From: Halobaculum roseum
GTDB taxonomy: Archaea; Halobacteriota; Halobacteria; Halobacteriales; Haloferacaceae
Length of the DNA: 64,000 nucleotides
Assembly: GCF_019880245.1 (NCBI RefSeq)
Contig: NZ_CP082288.1
Coordinates: 62,001 to 126,000, forward strand
Direction of reading: 5' to 3'
Part shown: one piece after another, positions 18,994 to 26,670 of the stretch
Layout of the letters: each line of letters opens with the position of its first letter
Numbering within the stretch: the first letter of the stretch is position 1
The notes under the pieces: model-generated
Told to the model about the DNA's origin: nothing
Databases searched by the model: none
Seen by the model: the letters and a program-made list of their open reading frames with translations, nothing else
Made by a program: the position numbers and the translations under genes

Positions 18994-20640
18994 CTACTCG
19001 GCCCCCGTGTCCTCACCCGGCTCGTCCGGGCCGTCGTCCGCGGGGGCTCCGCCGTCGGGCGTCGCGGCCGCGTTCGCGTCCGCGCTCGCGGCGTTCTCCT
19101 CACGGATCTGCTTGGCCTGCTCCTCGAGGTAGCGCTTCATTTCCGGGTACCCCTCAAGTTCCGAGGCCTGCTTCATCGTCGATGAGACGTACTGGCGAAC
19201 CGTCTTGGGCTCCGACTCCTCCAGCTTCTCCAGGAGGTACTGCTTGTCGGGTGTGATCGCGTCGCCGTCGATGACGCTCTCGATGAGTTCGCGCTGCAGC
19301 TCCGAGCCGAGCACGCGGTCGGCGATTTCGGCGGGAGTGTACCCGACCGACGCCTCCCCCAGCTCCTCGAGCGCCTCCTCGTCGAGGTCCTCGCCGATGC
19401 GTCCCAGCGACGTGCGCCACACCTCCGACATCACGTCGGCGTCGGGTTGCGGGATGAACTGCTGGATCGGGAACCGTCGGGTCGCCGCCGGGTCGATGCT
19501 GAAGGGCATGTTCGTCGCGCCGATCACCAGCAGGTTGTCCTCCACGTCGTTCATCTCCTGGAGGAACGCGTTCGTCAGCGCGCGCTCGTGGCGCTGGAGG
19601 TTGTCGTCCGACCGGTCGGGGATGAGCGTCTCCACCTCGTCGAAGAAGAGGACGGCGAACCCGTCGCCGGCGGCTTCGTGGGCCTGCTCGAAGGCCGCGC
19701 GGACGTTCTTCTCGGACTCGCCGGAGTACTTCGAGACCACGTCGCTGCCGCGAACCTCGAGGAAGACGACCTCGCCGTAGCTGTCCTCGATGTCGGTGTT
19801 GTGCTTCGCCTCGTAGGCGATCGCCTCCGAGACGAGCGTCTTCCCGCAGCCGGGCGGCCCGTACAGCATCATGCCGCCGCCGCGGTCGGCGAACTCCTCG
19901 CCGTAACGCTCGACGACCTCGTCGCGCACGTCCGGCTCGAACAGCGACAGCATCATCTCCGCCGTCTGCTTCACCTCCTCCAGTCCCGCGACGTCCTCCT
20001 CGAAGCTCGTCGTCGGGTTCTTCGGGGTGATGTCGATGTTGGCCTCCTCCTCGTCGGCCTGCCCGCCGGCACCGCCTCTACCGCCGCCGGCCGACCCGTC
20101 GCCCCCTCCGCCCGCGCCGGCGTCGGCCCCGGCCGGCGGGCCCGTGCTCGCGGGCGGTTCGTCGAGGAACTCGAATTCGGTGTCGTCGTCGACCCGGAGG
20201 GTCGTCCCCCGCGGCTCCAGTTCGTCGACGACGAACTCGACACGCTCGCCGCCGATGTCGGCCACCTCGTGGATGGGATGCAATAGGAACTGACGCTCGG
20301 CGAGCGCCGAGGCCAGCGCCTCCTCGTTGACCCCTTCGGCGTAGATGCTCGCGCGCTTGCAGGTCCGGACCGACCCGAGCGACACGTCGGTGTCGACGTA
20401 GAAGTCGTTCGTTCGGTTGATGCCGCCGAACAGCGTCGCGACGTTGCTGTTCAGGTAGACCTTGTTCTTGATCGTGCTCGCGAAGCCGTCGTCCTCGGTG
20501 TCGACGCGAAAGAACGCCTCCCGGCCCGCGTGCCGGACGCGGGCGATCTCGGCGCTCGGCCCCACCTTGCTCTCTCCCACGGTGACGTGGGACGTCGGCT
20601 GCTCCTCCTTCGTGATCGGCGTGAGATTGACACTCGTCAT
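18994..20640 (-). CDS. Cdc48/VAT-type AAA ATPase with one AAA module
   Basis: The protein has 548 residues. Residues about 1-160 resemble a Cdc48 N-domain (beta-rich, with KVYLNSNVATLFGG and a clam-like second half). A Gly/Asp-rich linker (about 165-200) leads to one AAA module: Walker A GPPGCGKT (261-268), Walker B LFFDEVE (331-337), sensor-1 Asn in GATNMP (377) and arginines in ATRRF (388-389). Cdc48/VAT have two modules; this has one, as in Vps4, katanin and many archaeal single-ring unfoldases. The start is placed at ATG 20640 because it overlaps the preceding gene (ATGA); the frame also runs open upstream. Such ATPases remodel protein complexes; here the substrate may be a tubulin-like polymer or coiled-coil partner. 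Confidence 0.8.
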   Translation of the reverse strand: MTSVNLTPITKEEQPTSHVTVGESKVGPSAEIARVRHAGREAFFRVDTEDDGFASTIKNKVYLNSNVATLFGGINRTNDFYVDTDVSLGSVRTCKRASIYAEGVNEEALASALAERQFLLHPIHEVADIGGERVEFVVDELEPRGTTLRVDDDTEFEFLDEPPASTGPPAGADAGAGGGGDGSAGGGRGGAGGQADEEEANIDITPKNPTTSFEEDVAGLEEVKQTAEMMLSLFEPDVRDEVVERYGEEFADRGGGMMLYGPPGCGKTLVSEAIAYEAKHNTDIEDSYGEVVFLEVRGSDVVSKYSGESEKNVRAAFEQAHEAAGDGFAVLFFDEVETLIPDRSDDNLQRHERALTNAFLQEMNDVEDNLLVIGATNMPFSIDPAATRRFPIQQFIPQPDADVMSEVWRTSLGRIGEDLDEEALEELGEASVGYTPAEIADRVLGSELQRELIESVIDGDAITPDKQYLLEKLEESEPKTVRQYVSSTMKQASELEGYPEMKRYLEEQAKQIREENAASADANAAATPDGGAPADDGPDEPGEDTGAE

Positions 20641-21281
20641 GTGACTGGGTTGTAGGCGTTCATCGTTCGGGTCACGTATTCGCGAACCCGCCTGTCCTCG
20701 GCGTCGACCAACCCGTCCGGCGGGTTGACCCACAGTGTCCGCGTGGCAACGTTTCGAACCGTCGTCCCGGTGTCACGAAGCGCGCCAGCGACGTCGTATA
20801 GCGCGGCCGCGGAGTCGTCGCGGTCGTACAGTTCCATCCGGCCGGCGCCGCGCTCGACCATGCCGGCGGCGCGGTCGAGTCGGTCGGCAACGACCGGAAC
20901 CAGCACGAACCAGTTCGCGACCGGCGCGCCGGCAGTCGCGAGCGGGACCGTCGGCGACCCGGACTCGACGACCGTGATCCGATCCGCGTCGCGGGCCGTC
21001 TCGACGGCGTCCGTCGGCGGTTCCTCGCCGTCGATGGCCGCCGTGATCACTCGCTCGACCGCCTCCGCGATCCGCCCGTCGTCAGTCGTCGCCGGGACCG
21101 GGAGGGGGTATGCATCGGCCAGCACCGTCCCGATCCCGCGCAGCGACGCGTCGAACGACGCGATCGCCGCCCAGACCCGCCGTGGTTCGGGCGGCTCCGT
21201 CCACGAGAGGATCCGGTCGCACGTGTGCTCGACGGCGGCGACGCGGTCGACCCACGGGTCGACGGTGGACGGGCGGGACAC
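20637..21281 (-). CDS. Unknown 214-residue protein coupled to the AAA ATPase
   Basis: The start is GTG at 21281 with a GGAGGT site five to six bases upstream. The stop overlaps the AAA ATPase start (ATGA), so the two are translated together. The protein is soluble, mixed alpha/beta, with no recognised motif. Features include a Pro-rich helical start (ILSWTEPPEPRRVWAAI), a central segment with VANWFVLVPVVADRLDRAAGM, and RTLWVNPPDGLV near the end. It is plausibly an adaptor of the ATPase. Confidence 0.55.
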   Translation of the reverse strand: MSRPSTVDPWVDRVAAVEHTCDRILSWTEPPEPRRVWAAIASFDASLRGIGTVLADAYPLPVPATTDDGRIAEAVERVITAAIDGEEPPTDAVETARDADRITVVESGSPTVPLATAGAPVANWFVLVPVVADRLDRAAGMVERGAGRMELYDRDDSAAALYDVAGALRDTGTTVRNVATRTLWVNPPDGLVDAEDRRVREYVTRTMNAYNPVT

Positions 21282-21371
21282 GCGGTTACCTCCGACCCCC
21301 CGAAATCTCTCCGGACGGCGGTCGCGACTCGACGCCGTCGTCGACGCTCGAACTGGTCCCGGTCCACATCC

Positions 21372-22406
21372 TCACGATTCCGTGATCGGTCCCGTCTCGG
21401 TTTCTTCTTGGGCGATCGCCTGGGAGGACTCGTTCAACTCGGCCATCTCCTCGGAGTTGCCGCGGAGGCCGTCGAGGACGCTCTGTGCGTCCTCCTCCTC
21501 CATCCGCTGTTGCTTGGGGACGACGTTGCCCATCGCCGACAGCACGTTCGTGAACTGCTCGGAGGCGGCGACCGCCTCCGTCGGCCACAGCTGTTGGGTC
21601 CGGATGCGGTCGCGCAGGCGCTCCTGCTCGATCGAGAACTGGTCCTTGGTCGATTCGAGCTGGTTGATGATCTCCCCGAGGTCCATCTGATCGGGGTTCG
21701 GGTTCGGGATCGTCTCTCCTTGCTTCTCCTCCTGCTCGACGAGGTTGTCGTAGTGGTAGTACTGCTCGCGGGCGTGGTCGAACTTTCGCCGTTCCTCCTC
21801 GTCGAGGTCGTCGATATCGCGGTCGCCGGCGATCGAGAGCATCTCCTGTTTGTACTCCTCGCGCTTCTCGCGGAGGTTCTGGAGGTGCTCGGTCACGTCG
21901 GTCGTCTCCTCGGCCCGGGAGGTGAGCCGCTCTTGGGCCTCCTCGACCCGGCTGACCGCCGTCTCGATCCGCTCGGTGAGCGTGTCGAACGCCGCCGCCC
22001 AGTTGCTGTACATCTTCACCGCGCGGTCCATTTCGTCCTCGTCGTAGGTGTGAGGCGGCCGCAGCACGGTCACCGTCGACTGCTCGATCGTGACGATGTC
22101 GTTGTGGCCGAGGTAGTCGATGATAGCGCGCGCGGAGTCCTCGCTGCGGGCGTGTTCGCTCTCCGCGAGCGTTTGTGCGGCGTCCTCGACGTCGATTACT
22201 GCGTTGCCGTCCTGGTCGATGGAGAGCTCCTCGCCGCCGAGGACCTCCTCCATGAGGTGTGCGAGCAGCTCCTCCCAGTTCCCGCTGTCCTCGTCGGACC
22301 ACTCGGCGAAGCCGTGCTCGAACCGCACCGCCGAATCGGTCTGGCTCTTCGGTCGTGCGACGACCGTCCCGGACTCCTCGTCTTCCTCGAAGCTAGTGTA
22401 TCGCAT
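21372..22406 (-). CDS. Coiled-coil protein with possible winged-helix N-terminus
   Basis: The protein has 344 residues. Residues about 35-120 look like a helix-rich, winged-helix-like domain ending in a short strand pair (DIVTIEQSTVTVLRPP). Residues about 130-270 form heptad-patterned charged helices (AAFDTLTERIETAVSRVEEA, HLQNLREKREEYKQEM). The tail is Glu/Ser/Gln-rich. No transmembrane segment. It lies 24 bases after the winged-helix gene in the minus operon. Its basic outline (helical, charged, coiled coil) is shared by ESCRT-III-like and myosin-tail-like proteins, but I see no diagnostic motif for either. Confidence 0.6.
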   Translation of the reverse strand: MRYTSFEEDEESGTVVARPKSQTDSAVRFEHGFAEWSDEDSGNWEELLAHLMEEVLGGEELSIDQDGNAVIDVEDAAQTLAESEHARSEDSARAIIDYLGHNDIVTIEQSTVTVLRPPHTYDEDEMDRAVKMYSNWAAAFDTLTERIETAVSRVEEAQERLTSRAEETTDVTEHLQNLREKREEYKQEMLSIAGDRDIDDLDEEERRKFDHAREQYYHYDNLVEQEEKQGETIPNPNPDQMDLGEIINQLESTKDQFSIEQERLRDRIRTQQLWPTEAVAASEQFTNVLSAMGNVVPKQQRMEEEDAQSVLDGLRGNSEEMAELNESSQAIAQEETETGPITES

Positions 22407-22430
22407 TGTAATTGGTAGGGGTGTGGGGGT

Positions 22431-23576
22431 TCAGAATCGCTCGTCGATCAGCTCCTCGCCGCGTTCGCGGACCTTCGTCCGTGCGTACGCGTTACCGGCG
22501 TCGCTCGTCGTGAGGTGGAGCTCCTCGATCTCCTCGCGGAGTTCCTGCTTGAGGTTGTCGGCCGTCGTCGCCGTCAGGTCCTGCAGCAGCGGTCGAGTGA
22601 GGTCCTCGGCCCGCCCCTCGACCATGCGGTCGAACGGCTCGACCGCCACGGCGAGGCTGCGCGCCTCGAGCACCTCGACGTGAGGGTCCCCGTCCTCGTC
22701 GTCGTACTGCTCCCGGACGGCCTCGATGACGTCCCGCTTGCCGATGTCGGCGCCGCTGGACCTGACGTGCGCGAGCACGTTCGACCGCACCTCGATCTCC
22801 GATTCGATCAGCGAGTCGTACTCGCCGGTCGGCATCACGTTGCCGGCGTCCTCGAACGCCCGGCTCACGTCGTCGCCGAGGTCGTCGGCGAGCTTCTCGG
22901 CGAACTCATCCAGCGCGCTTCGGACGAGGTACTCGCCGTCCATGTCGATGATGAGCCCTTCACCCTGGAGGTAGCCGATCACGTCCGAGGTTGCGGCCAC
23001 CGAGATGGCCTCCTCCAATTGGCCGTGTGAGAGCTTGCCGTGGGTCGCGCGCCGCTTGAGCTTCCCTTTGAGGTCGTCCTCGCCGGTCTCCTCCTTCAGG
23101 CGCGAACCGACGGAGTAGTAGTCCCGGCTCCCCGCGGCGATACGCATCACGAGGTTCTGTCGCCGCAGTTGCTTGGCGAAGAAGTCCGCGTCCTCGTGGG
23201 CCAGATCGAACGCCTTCCGGAGGTCCTCCGTCGTGACGACCATTTGATCCCGGAAGACGCCCTTGAGACGCTCGGTGATCCCCGTTCGCGTGCCGCTGCC
23301 GAACGGGTCCCAGTAGAACACCCCCGACCGGATCCGTTCGAGGCTGTAGTTCTCGTCCTCCGCCAGATCGCGAAGGGACTCCTTCACGTCGGATGTCGAC
23401 AGCTTCGGCGCCTTCAATCGGCCTTTCTCCCGACTCTGGTACTGGTCCTTCAGGTCGTCGCGGACGCGGTCGACGTACAGGAACCCGTAATTGGACTGTG
23501 AGATGTCCTGTGAGATATCTTCCAGAACGTCGCGATCGACGGGACGAAGCGGCATTGACAGATATACCAGACTCAT
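22431..23576 (-). CDS. Tandem winged-helix protein, first gene of the minus operon
   Basis: The protein has 381 residues and appears built from several winged-helix-sized helical units: about 12-75 (DRVRDDLKDQY), 90-160 (VVTTEDLRKAFDLAHEDADFFAKQL), 175-225 (LSHGQLEEAISVAATSDVIGYL) and 255-300. A helical tail follows, about 320-381. Each unit ends with a short strand such as NLVMRIA or GLIIDMDGEYLV. It could bind DNA and regulate the operon, or act as a tandem winged-helix protein adaptor, as in ESCRT-II or UFL1. No family recognised. A second ATG at 23555 is a possible start because a TATA-like CTTAGTA lies about 27 bases upstream of it (23579-23585). Confidence 0.6.
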   Translation of the reverse strand: MSLVYLSMPLRPVDRDVLEDISQDISQSNYGFLYVDRVRDDLKDQYQSREKGRLKAPKLSTSDVKESLRDLAEDENYSLERIRSGVFYWDPFGSGTRTGITERLKGVFRDQMVVTTEDLRKAFDLAHEDADFFAKQLRRQNLVMRIAAGSRDYYSVGSRLKEETGEDDLKGKLKRRATHGKLSHGQLEEAISVAATSDVIGYLQGEGLIIDMDGEYLVRSALDEFAEKLADDLGDDVSRAFEDAGNVMPTGEYDSLIESEIEVRSNVLAHVRSSGADIGKRDVIEAVREQYDDEDGDPHVEVLEARSLAVAVEPFDRMVEGRAEDLTRPLLQDLTATTADNLKQELREEIEELHLTTSDAGNAYARTKVRERGEELIDERF

Positions 23577-24099: not shown

Positions 24100-24341
24100 C
24101 CACGGACCCGCCCGCCGAGGGCGATGCGCCGACGGATCCGTCCGTGACACACAGGTACGGCCGGATCTCGCTCGTCGACGGCGGCGTGATCGTGTACGAT
24201 CGCGACCGGGTGAACGCGTGGATCCAGTCGAGCGTCGCGTACGACCTCCCGGCGCCCGCGTCGGCGACGGACGCGACAGCCCTCGACCTCGGGGGCGGAG
24301 ACGGAACGGTCGGGGGCGAAGACGGGCCGGGAGGTGACTGA
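24096..24341 (+). CDS. Small conserved-type haloarchaeal protein upstream of NAD synthase
   Basis: The protein has 81 residues and a GTG start at 24096. A central beta-like motif (RYGRISLVDGGVIVYDRDRV followed by NAWIQS) resembles small haloarchaeal proteins of the DUF7331 type, in which an AWIQS-like segment recurs. That assignment is from memory and tentative. The tail is Gly/Asp-rich. Its end lies two bases before the next gene, so it is co-translated with the NAD synthase homologue. Role unknown. Confidence 0.5.
   Translation: MTTDPPAEGDAPTDPSVTHRYGRISLVDGGVIVYDRDRVNAWIQSSVAYDLPAPASATDATALDLGGGDGTVGGEDGPGGD
24330..24337 (+). promoter_or_regulatory. Perfect ribosome binding site fixing the GTG start at 24344
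   Basis: GGAGGTGA is fully complementary to the 3' end of archaeal 16S rRNA and ends six bases before GTG 24344, which decides that start. Confidence 0.7.
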
Positions 24342-24343
24342 CG

Positions 24344-26101
24344 GTGGCAGCCGGATGCCCCGAGACGGCCTCGTCGACCGACGGAAGCCCAGGCACCGGC
24401 GACCCCGAGCTGCTTCGCTCCCGGTCGACGAAGCTGATCCGGGAGACAGCAGAGGCGGTCGACGCGTCGCACGGCGTCGTCTGTCTCTCCGGGGGCGTCG
24501 ACTCGACCACCACGGCCGCGCTCGCGGTCGATGCGCTCGGCGCCGACGCCGTGACGGCGCTGATCATGCCGACGGACACGACCGACGAGGAGCACGTCCG
24601 CGACGCCAGGTCGTACGCCGACTCGCTCGGAGTGGATCACGCGACCGTGCCGCTCGAGCCCGCCCTCGACGTGTTCAAACGGTACGTCGCCCCCCGCATC
24701 GCGGCCGACGGCGACGCCGTCGCCGCCGGAAACCTCGCGGCCCGCCTCCGGATGGCGTGTGCACACCTCGTCGCCGACGCGTCCGACGGTATCGTCGTCG
24801 GGACGAGCAACCGGACCGAGCGGCTGCTCGGCTACTTCACCAAGTACGGCGACGGCGCCGCCGACCTGCACCCGCTCGGCGAATACGACAAGACGGCCGT
24901 CCGGGCGCTCGCGACACACCTCGACGTGCCGCCGGAGATCGTCTCCAGGCCGCCGACGGCGGGCTTCTGGCGGGGCCAAACCGACGAGTCCGAGCTCGGC
25001 GCCTCCTACGCGACGCTCGACACCGTTCTGGGGTCGCTCGTCGACACGTCGCCGCGCGGCCCGGCGACGGCCATCGACGAGGCGACGGGCGTCGACCGCG
25101 AAACCGTCACCCGGATCGTCGATCGGGTCGAACGCAACGCTCACAAGCGGTCACGGCCGCCGGCGCCGTCCCGGACCGTCGGGGACGCGACCGTCGAATC
25201 GGACGCGGGCGGGGACGACGATCGGGCCGTCATCGGCGGTTCCCGCCGGGCGGCCACGACCGTCGAGCGTGCCCAGGACCTCGTTCGGTCCCGCGTCGAC
25301 GCCGCCGACGCCGGGGGCGTCGTCGTCGATCTCGGCGCCGGCCGGGAATCGAGCGTCGCAGCCGCGATCGCCGTCGAGGCGCTCGGGGCCGATCGGGTTC
25401 GCGGACTCCACCTCCCGTGTCACAAAGCGGCCGGACTCGATGACCCGGCTCCCGAATCGATCGCCGAGGACCTCGGGATCGCCGACGACAGGGTGACGAT
25501 CAGGCCGCTCGTCACGGAACTCGAGGCGGCGCTTCCCTCGCGTGTCACCGAGCGCGCGGGCGCGACCGACCTGGGCGAGTTCGTCTCGCGGGTCCGGACG
25601 GCCTGTCGATACTACGTCGCCAACGTGGACGACCGGCTCGTCGTGGGCACGACGAACCGGACCGACACCCTCCTCGGGCGGACGACGCGGTACGGCGACG
25701 CGGCCGCGGACCTCCGGCCGCTGGGCGCAACGTACGCGAGCGAGCTGGACGCGGTCGGGCGCCGGCTCGGGTGTTCGTTCGCGTACGCGGATCGGTGCGA
25801 CCGCCGTCGGTCGGGCGCGGTCGGGTCCGACAGCACGCGGGGGTTACCGGATGGAGCGTCCCCCGAACTGACCGACGCGATCCTCGTACGCCTCGTCGAT
25901 CACGACCTCGGCATCGAGCGGACCGCCGACGCCGTCGACGCGGACCGGGAACTCGTCCGCCGGTGTGCCGCCCGGCACGTCGCGTCCGATCGGACACGTT
26001 CGCGCCCGCCGACGACCGGCGGTCGAACCGACGGCCGCGACGCTCCGCGCTACTTCCACGAACTCGAGTTGGCGTTCGACTCGTCGTCGTCGGACCCATA
26101 G
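24344..26101 (+). CDS. nadE: NAD+ synthase with a second, degenerate synthase-like domain
   Basis: The protein has 585 residues, about twice the length of archaeal ammonia-dependent NadE. NadE makes NAD+ from deamido-NAD+, ATP and ammonia. Domain 1 (about 20-275) has the ATP-pyrophosphatase loop SGGVDS (49-54), an NLAARLRMACAH helix and GTSNRTERLLGY-x5-GDGAADLHPLGE, all typical of NadE. Domain 2 (about 300-500) repeats the layout (RTACRYYVAN, VGTTNRTDTLLG, YGDAAADLRPLG), but the loop is LGAGRES (330-336), so its ATP-binding residues are lost. A helical domain with YADRCDRRRSG follows. The GTG start is set by the site at 24330. Domain 1 is probably active; domain 2 looks structural or regulatory. 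A wider ATP-pyrophosphatase role cannot be excluded. Confidence 0.75.
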   Translation: MAAGCPETASSTDGSPGTGDPELLRSRSTKLIRETAEAVDASHGVVCLSGGVDSTTTAALAVDALGADAVTALIMPTDTTDEEHVRDARSYADSLGVDHATVPLEPALDVFKRYVAPRIAADGDAVAAGNLAARLRMACAHLVADASDGIVVGTSNRTERLLGYFTKYGDGAADLHPLGEYDKTAVRALATHLDVPPEIVSRPPTAGFWRGQTDESELGASYATLDTVLGSLVDTSPRGPATAIDEATGVDRETVTRIVDRVERNAHKRSRPPAPSRTVGDATVESDAGGDDDRAVIGGSRRAATTVERAQDLVRSRVDAADAGGVVVDLGAGRESSVAAAIAVEALGADRVRGLHLPCHKAAGLDDPAPESIAEDLGIADDRVTIRPLVTELEAALPSRVTERAGATDLGEFVSRVRTACRYYVANVDDRLVVGTTNRTDTLLGRTTRYGDAAADLRPLGATYASELDAVGRRLGCSFAYADRCDRRRSGAVGSDSTRGLPDGASPELTDAILVRLVDHDLGIERTADAVDADRELVRRCAARHVASDRTRSRPPTTGGRTDGRDAPRYFHELELAFDSSSSDP

Positions 26102-26151: not shown

Positions 26152-26670
26152 CTACCGCTCCAGCGGCGCCTCCATCCGCGCTACGTCGAGATGGAGGACG
26201 TTACGTCCCTCGTCGGTCGCCTCGACCTGTCCCGTGATCACGAGCCCCGAGTTCGGCGTCGGCCCGACAATCACCGGGTCGCCGACGCTGAACCGCGTGA
26301 CGGACTCCCGGAACGTCACGGTCGCTCGGCACTTCTCCGGGTGGTGGACGTTTGTGAAGTCGATCGACTCGACGGCCACGTCGACCCGGTCGTAGTCGTG
26401 GGCGAGGCCCAGGGTCTCGCCGTCGCCGCCGTCGGCCGGATCGCGGTCCAGCGCCTCGAAGGCGGCGTCGGTCGGCACGTACCCGCCCTCCGATCCCGGG
26501 ACGCCCTCGACCAACCCGAGCGACTTCATCATCTGCATCAGGTTCCGGATCGTCCCCACGTGCCGGTCGCAGACCTCGGCGATCTCGGTGGCCGGCATCG
26601 GGGACTCCGTCTCCTCGTACCCGTTGACGAGGGTGTTCAGGATCTCCCGCTGGCTGCTGGTCAGGTCCAT
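26152..26670 (-). CDS. Winged-helix transcription regulator (Rrf2/TrmB-like haloarchaeal type)
   Basis: The protein has 172 residues. An N-terminal winged helix (about 3-72; SSQREILNTLVNGYEETES, TIRNLMQMMKSLGLVEGVPG) is followed by a C-terminal beta domain with VESIDFTNVHHPEKCRATV and VGDPVIVGPTPNSGLVITGQ. I recognise this two-domain layout in a family of haloarchaeal regulators. The conserved VHHPEKCRA segment has His/Cys residues that could bind a metal or sense redox. It stands alone between the NAD synthase and MaeB genes. Its target is unknown. A TATA-like CGTATTTGA lies about 32-40 bases upstream on the minus strand (26702-26710). Confidence 0.7.
   Translation of the reverse strand: MDLTSSQREILNTLVNGYEETESPMPATEIAEVCDRHVGTIRNLMQMMKSLGLVEGVPGSEGGYVPTDAAFEALDRDPADGGDGETLGLAHDYDRVDVAVESIDFTNVHHPEKCRATVTFRESVTRFSVGDPVIVGPTPNSGLVITGQVEATDEGRNVLHLDVARMEAPLER

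Follow-up and report, generated by a model that had tools for sequence, protein, structure and literature searches.

Single-domain NAD synthases (NadE; PF02540, NF010587), such as P. horikoshii 2e18 and B. subtilis 1nsy, are homodimers with two live sites in the known members. Glutamine-dependent enzymes of the nitrilase–NadE type (type F), which are PII-linked in bacteria, have a two-domain chain whose extra domain is a nitrilase-type glutaminase. Pairs of enzyme and pseudoenzyme fused in one chain, in which only one of two copies of a dimeric enzyme is live and the other is catalytically dead, are known. A literature search yielded no report of a tandem NadE or a pseudo-NadE. Ammonia-dependent NadE enzymes have been described as dimers (PMC7196632), and in a published structure the dimer interface houses the NaAD site (PMC6946656).

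The window analysed here, a stretch of 64,000 nt from Halobaculum roseum on a 337-kb contig (C3), encoded a protein with two NadE domains per chain and one dead ATP site (Table 1). An earlier note on this DNA had proposed a NadE duplicated in one chain with a dead second ATP loop. This was confirmed by profile matches to both halves and by LGAGRES in the place of SGGVDS, and these two landmarks, as well as GTTNRTDTLLG and YGDAAADLRPLG, were located where the note had put them. The PF02540 NAD_synthase profile (gathering score 21) matched at residues ~27–272, with 237 bits (E 2e-70) for the N half alone, and the C half alone also exceeded the gathering score (103 bits, E 2e-29). The N half reached the NF010587 equivalog cut-off of NCBIfam (266 bits against 255); the C half stayed below it (131 bits, E 6e-38). 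The two halves shared 34% identity over 250 aligned columns (E 9e-30). The nearest solved relative of the N half was the archaeal NadE 2e18 (E 9.9e-45), which the C half alone also matched by sequence (E 4e-22). Chance similarity was excluded, since these E-values were accompanied by an architecture conserved in at least four genera, and an artefact of frame or chance was rejected for the tandem open reading frame, with a third-position GC of 0.91 and 0.86 in the two halves and conservation in relatives. The chain is similar in length to that of nitrilase–NadE and likewise two-domain, but its extra domain is a second NadE instead of a glutaminase; no Pfam match to CN_hydrolase, the N-terminal glutaminase domain, was found in the protein.

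Table 1. Features of the tandem nadE locus. Positions refer to the window, residues to the tandem protein.
Feature	Position	Strand	Remarks
AAA ATPase and hypothetical genes	18994–23576	-	Upstream of tandem nadE
DUF7331 (PF24018) small protein, 81 aa	24096–24341	+	GTG start; Pfam 28 bits, cut-off 27; 2-nt gap to nadE
Shine-Dalgarno-like GGAGGTGA	24330–24337	+	6 nt before GTG start of tandem nadE; from sequence
Tandem NAD synthase (nadE-nadE fusion), 585 aa	24344–26101	+	GTG start at 24344, stop at 26101
N half, residues 23–277, catalytically complete NadE domain	24410–25174	+	PF02540 237 bits; catalytic positions invariant in 17 tandem proteins
Intact ATP pyrophosphatase loop SGGVDS, N half, residues 49–54	24488–24505	+	From sequence
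Intact HKR motif, N half, residues 267–269	25142–25150	+	From sequence
Linker between halves, residues 278–304	25175–25255	+	Low pLDDT; nearly unconstrained, H. magnesiiphilum against window
C half, residues 305–560, NadE fold, ATP-dead	25256–26023	+	PF02540 103 bits; Z 26.8 to 2e18
Degenerate ATP loop LGAGRES, C half, residues 330–336	25331–25351	+	From sequence
HLPCHKAAG, residues 356–364	25409–25435	+	Most conserved block of the dead half
Retained RVR, C half, residues 416–418 (B. subtilis R138/R140)	25589–25597	+	Start of YYVAN helix; both arginines invariant in 17/17 C halves
GTTNRTDTLLG...YGDAAADLRPLG block, C half	25646–25726	+	D441 for Mg glutamate, R446 at Y168, R449 at K171; D456 retained
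GTTNRTDTLLG, C half	25646–25678	+	Landmark located in sequence
YGDAAADLRPLG, C half	25691–25726	+	Landmark located in sequence
Lost P2-loop region, C half, residues 480–509	25781–25870	+	Zero identical positions in six-species dead clade
RTR replacing HKR, C half, residues 550–552	25991–25999	+	From sequence
FHELEL tail, residues 571–576, predicted helix	26054–26071	+	In 17/17 tandem proteins
Winged-helix regulator (PF03444 HrcA_DNA-bdg; annotated TrmB family)	26152–26670	-	Convergent, downstream of tandem nadE

The whole-chain AlphaFold2 model had a mean pLDDT of 80 and a pTM of 0.83, with low confidence at the N terminus, in the linker and at residues 480–499; the pTM suggests that the relative placement of the halves is defined. 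With its N half aligned, the model gave a VIA-align Z of 31 to 1xng and 2e18. Glutamine-type chains such as 6ofb aligned to residues 19..559 of the model (ranges being end points), which comprised the N core and an element of the C half, a mere hint that helices of the C half may lie against the N core. Folded alone, the C half (pLDDT 82, pTM 0.80) aligned with NadEs at Z 20–27 (26.8 to 2e18), whereas GMP synthase and LarE reached only 13–15. The earlier note had staked its proposal on NadE similarity in residues 300–500, and it was present by profile, sequence and predicted fold. The C half belongs to the NadE family through descent and fold but lacks the catalytic equipment of a member.

The same architecture, which the note had suggested seeking in other haloarchaea, was found in 17 distinct tandem proteins from at least four genera: Halobaculum, Halocatena, Haladaptatus and that of one further Haladaptataceae genome (G289). 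It was present in 9 of the 11 Halobaculum genomes searched and additionally in H. lipolyticum, in 6/7 Halocatena genomes (two sharing an identical protein) and in one of nine genomes of the genus of Haladaptatus pallidirubidus. The protein of H. magnesiiphilum (NZ_CP081960) was 90% identical to that of the window. No further tandem forms were found in a search of 392 genomes of the order or among the contig-scan matches listed. Long NadE-matching frames in other Haladaptatus genomes were rejected as tandem forms; they look like nitrilase–NadE of the glutamine type (L176–L180, four similar genes and a more distant one). Most tandem genes were located on replicons of 250–570 kb, and that of G016 and several Halocatena copies on large contigs. 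In the PLSDB records examined, the proteins were annotated simply as NAD+ synthase. A second, normal nadE, for which the note had also proposed to look, was detected on the main contig (C1:1499125–1499871; 45% to the N half). The tandem gene was thus rejected as the sole nadE of the genome, and its product is an accessory NadE, since a normal single-domain gene is present as well.

In a phylogenetic tree, all C halves grouped in a single clade (100/99) among the accessory NadE2 sequences and were separate from the housekeeping nadE. The haloarchaeal single-domain NadE2 paralogues (L013–L032, L128–L143) fell in the same part of the tree; they share the LPC(H/N)K motif, which is their usual form of the HLPCHKAAG block of the C half, but have a single domain with all catalytic residues, and the inspected tails of single NadE2 proteins did not end in FHELEL. 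A fusion of housekeeping with accessory nadE was rejected, both halves being placed outside the NadE1 clade. Halocatena was split from Haladaptataceae plus Halobaculum among the C halves and likewise among the N halves, so that the simplest history, and a likely one, is that the fusion occurred once, before the lineages diverged. The N-half clades joined weakly; a single N clade was absent from the best tree, yet it was not rejected (AU p 0.34).

The C half was fully live in Halobaculum sp. CBA1158, Haladaptatus, G289, Halocatena marina and Halocatena G461. The live–live proteins, among them those of CBA1158, Haladaptatus pallidirubidus and Halocatena marina, have the same fusion, order and tail as the window protein, but both ATP loops and both HKR motifs are intact. 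In Halocatena salina a single P-loop glycine of the C half was changed (SGSVDS), and in H. lipolyticum the loop was intact and E163 was replaced by D. The C-half loop read SGDVGS in H. marinum, DGSVES in H. limi, GAGVDA in genome G010, and GAGRES in the five-species clade that includes the window (GTGRES in one). The C halves of Halocatena G358 and G467 contained DGRKRS together with E163A, T158D, D174N and K187E. Decay was separate in Halobaculum and Halocatena, with two independent losses as the minimum; inside Halobaculum it may have occurred once or twice, since the position of CBA1158 in the N-half tree is unsure. The relatives thus span two live halves, loss of the Mg glutamate with an intact ATP loop, and an ATP site that is dead altogether. 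A single enzyme thus offers the steps by which a homodimer becomes an enzyme–pseudoenzyme, and each residue change along the way can be assayed.

Residues are numbered as in B. subtilis, counting Met as 1, after a reference sequence whose length equals the 271-residue PDB chain plus Met. The N half carried SGGVDS, T158, E163 (the Mg glutamate, E159 of the window protein), Y168, K171, D174, D178, K187, the P2-loop TDE and HKR, and its catalytic positions were invariant in all 17 tandem proteins. The C half of the window protein had neither an SGGxDS loop (LGAGRES) nor the Mg glutamate (D441); the changes were S47G, G48A, D51E, E163D, Y168R, K171R, K187A, D221R and HKR to RTR, while R138, R140, Y145, A148, N149, G157, T158, R161, T170, G173, D174 and D178 were kept. 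Among 46 positions conserved to at least 95% in 103 live NadE domains, Halobaculum and Halocatena, the two dead lineages, shared 21 retentions and 12 losses (Fisher p=0.006). The shared losses were mostly of the ATP, Mg and P2-loop set (including P-loop S47 and D51, E163, Y168, K187 and P2-loop positions), and the shared retentions included R138, R140, Y145 and D178. Following HAMAP MF_00193, we take the equivalents of R138, K171 and HK to bind the deamido-NAD of the other subunit, and that of D178 to bind it within its own subunit; by count, the H of the HK motif presumably corresponds to human His648. This histidine contacts the adenine ribose of NaAD (PMC6946656). The ATP/Mg/P2-loop side was thus shed in both dead lineages, with retained positions on what would be the NaAD and dimer side, own and partner roles being assigned from HAMAP/UniProt annotation and one paper. 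K171 and HKR were kept in the C halves of H. lipolyticum, H. marinum and the dead Halocatena pair, while the ATP side was lost; in the window clade, K171 was replaced by R or P, and HKR by RTR or similar.

The order DUF7331, tandem nadE and convergent winged-helix regulator was constant in Halobaculum, and the outer genes varied. DUF7331 preceded the tandem gene in 10/10 loci, and the two are probably co-translated. The regulator adjoined it in all loci, with a universal stress gene in between in H. limi. A homologue of the regulator adjoins the single nadE2 in Halorubrum-type genomes, and it is paired with an accessory nadE across Haloferacaceae (L013, L015–L021, L024–L027, L029–L032); it is a candidate NAD- or nitrogen-responsive regulator. 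The AAA ATPase block upstream was also found in plasmids of H. magnesiiphilum and H. halobium and did not accompany the tandem gene in H. marinum, H. lipolyticum, H. limi and CBA1158. In Haladaptatus pallidirubidus and G289, the gene order was DUF7331, amt, glnK, degenerate nadE and tandem nadE, with nasA nearby in the former. The occurrence of DUF7331 small proteins ahead of both the tandem nadE of the window and the Haladaptatus amt–glnK (L162:6906–7166 (+)) was noted, suggesting a shared role in nitrogen-linked operons. In haloarchaea, amt–glnK genes are upregulated under nitrogen limitation (PMC6801745), and PII lifts the NAD+ inhibition of bacterial NadE2-Gln, with PII–nadE islands occurring in Archaea as well (PMC7196632). 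It can therefore fairly be argued that the tandem NadE would tune NAD synthesis to the ammonium supply. The argument is weaker for Halobaculum because PII is unlinked there, on the main contig; nadE–glnK linkage was present in H. pallidirubidus and G289. Whether archaeal NAD synthesis is tied to ammonium uptake and PII thereby becomes testable.

Within the GAGRES clade plus G010, dN/dS (Nei–Gojobori) was 0.10–0.38 for the N halves and 0.21–0.46 for the C halves, or 0.21–0.37 for the C halves of the five GAGRES species alone. In the linker, the window and H. magnesiiphilum differed by a dN of 0.29 and a dS of 0.34, which is near neutral. Identical positions across six species made up 59% of the N half and 44% of the C half, with conserved C-half blocks RVRGxHLPCHKAAG, DRVTIRPLV, EFVSRxRxACRYYVAN and a GTT...YGD...AAD block. 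These ratios and conserved positions indicate that the dead half is retained under purifying selection with relaxed constraint and is not debris. It could instead be a relic under relaxed selection heading for loss, with a function limited to folding, as C-half dN exceeded N-half dN in every pair compared and both linker and P2 region were unconstrained. However, this reading is already disfavoured by the low C-half ratios and the share of identical C-half positions, by a frame that is open in all relatives, and by 80% identity across six species in the block around HLPCHKAAG, and we consider it very unlikely. The protein is a new form within the known NadE family: a NAD synthase in tandem, one half live and the other ATP-dead, that selection has preserved. 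Four findings go beyond the earlier note: live–live relatives exist, decay was repeated, the dead half evolves under purifying selection, and the gene lies in a neighbourhood tied to nitrogen regulation.

We hypothesize, at about even chances, that the protein is an accessory ammonia-dependent NAD synthase that has turned into a single-chain pseudo-dimer with one catalytic and one ATP-dead site. Two copies of the accessory haloarchaeal nadE (termed NadE2 here) would have been fused head to tail, and the fused chain would derive from the ordinary homodimer with its NaAD site at the interface. The N half would provide the sole complete ATP/adenylation site, and the C half, having lost ATP and Mg binding, would be kept as its fold and NaAD-side residues complete the interface. 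The dead site may still hold NaAD or NAD+ without turnover and would then be a candidate regulatory site. We infer that the protein has NadE activity, that its N half pairs with its own C half, that the dead site binds a dinucleotide and that the gene is expressed together with nitrogen genes. The protein would then exemplify the natural conversion of an enzyme dimer to a single chain that retains one working site, and in it the NadE parts needed across the dimer interface, and function with one live site, become testable.

A C half that acts on its partner's site would be consistent with K171 and HKR having been retained in the C halves of H. lipolyticum, H. marinum and the dead Halocatena pair. 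Pairing of N halves only with C halves is opposed by the window clade, where the C half changed K171 and HKR and the N half kept all residues (17/17); the opposite would be expected. Since residues whose only expected role is at the dead site are still present in the N half, that site may continue to bind a dinucleotide, or else N halves may pair between chains. In the latter case, the N halves of two chains would form a normal two-site NadE dimer, with the dead C halves as an appended module for docking, a dimer of dimers or sensing. Such pairing would account better for the K171/HKR asymmetry than N:C pairing alone, but the C halves of H. lipolyticum, H. marinum and the dead Halocatena pair keep exactly these residues while their ATP side is lost, and the whole-chain pTM puts the halves together, although a monomer prediction is silent on pairing between chains; on balance we regard it as unlikely. 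A dead half that acts as a dinucleotide sensor, its ATP-less site binding NAD+ or NaAD and setting N-half activity by feedback, possibly with PII, would overlap with the pseudo-dimer and is possible, if somewhat improbable. The presumed NaAD ligands of the dead site (D178 of the C half and R, K and HK of the N half) are all retained, and amt–glnK lies beside the tandem gene in the Haladaptatus operon. In bacterial NadE2-Gln, NAD+ acts as an allosteric inhibitor and PII relieves the inhibition (PMC7196632), but this published case is a glutamine-type NadE, and PII of Halobaculum is elsewhere in the genome. It is quite doubtful that two genera independently converted the second active site to an ATP-less dinucleotide sensor relaying NAD+ status, and via the amt–glnK operon nitrogen status, to the single catalytic site. 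The earlier note had seen the dead half as a stand-in subunit or a nucleotide regulator. Both would fit an NaAD/dimer side kept and an ATP/Mg side lost; K171R and the change of HKR to RTR count against a simple second subunit. It is very unlikely that the enzyme amidates a substrate other than NaAD, such as the NaMN used by the Francisella NMN synthetase. In favour of this reading, 3fiu, titled NMN synthetase, ranked second among the solved relatives of the N half (E 2.6e-39; structural alignment 34%), and a normal NadE is already encoded in the genome; against it, the archaeal NadE 2e18 was closer.

Additional NadE-like genes were observed next to some tandem genes. Copies or remnants were located just upstream of or near the Halocatena tandem gene (L118:3227–4159 (-), L163:9694–9933 (+) and L181:3453–4812 (-)), with a complete copy in G461 and a C-terminal piece alone in H. 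salina, as if this locus formerly had three NadE domains. The strongly degenerate third gene directly before the tandem gene in H. pallidirubidus and G289 (L162:9003–9926 (+) and L152:9643–11040 (-)) contained an SGDVDST or TGDVDSA loop. The H. pallidirubidus copy is annotated in PLSDB as 7-cyano-7-deazaguanine synthase, yet it scored 98 bits with NAD_synthase against 21 with QueC.
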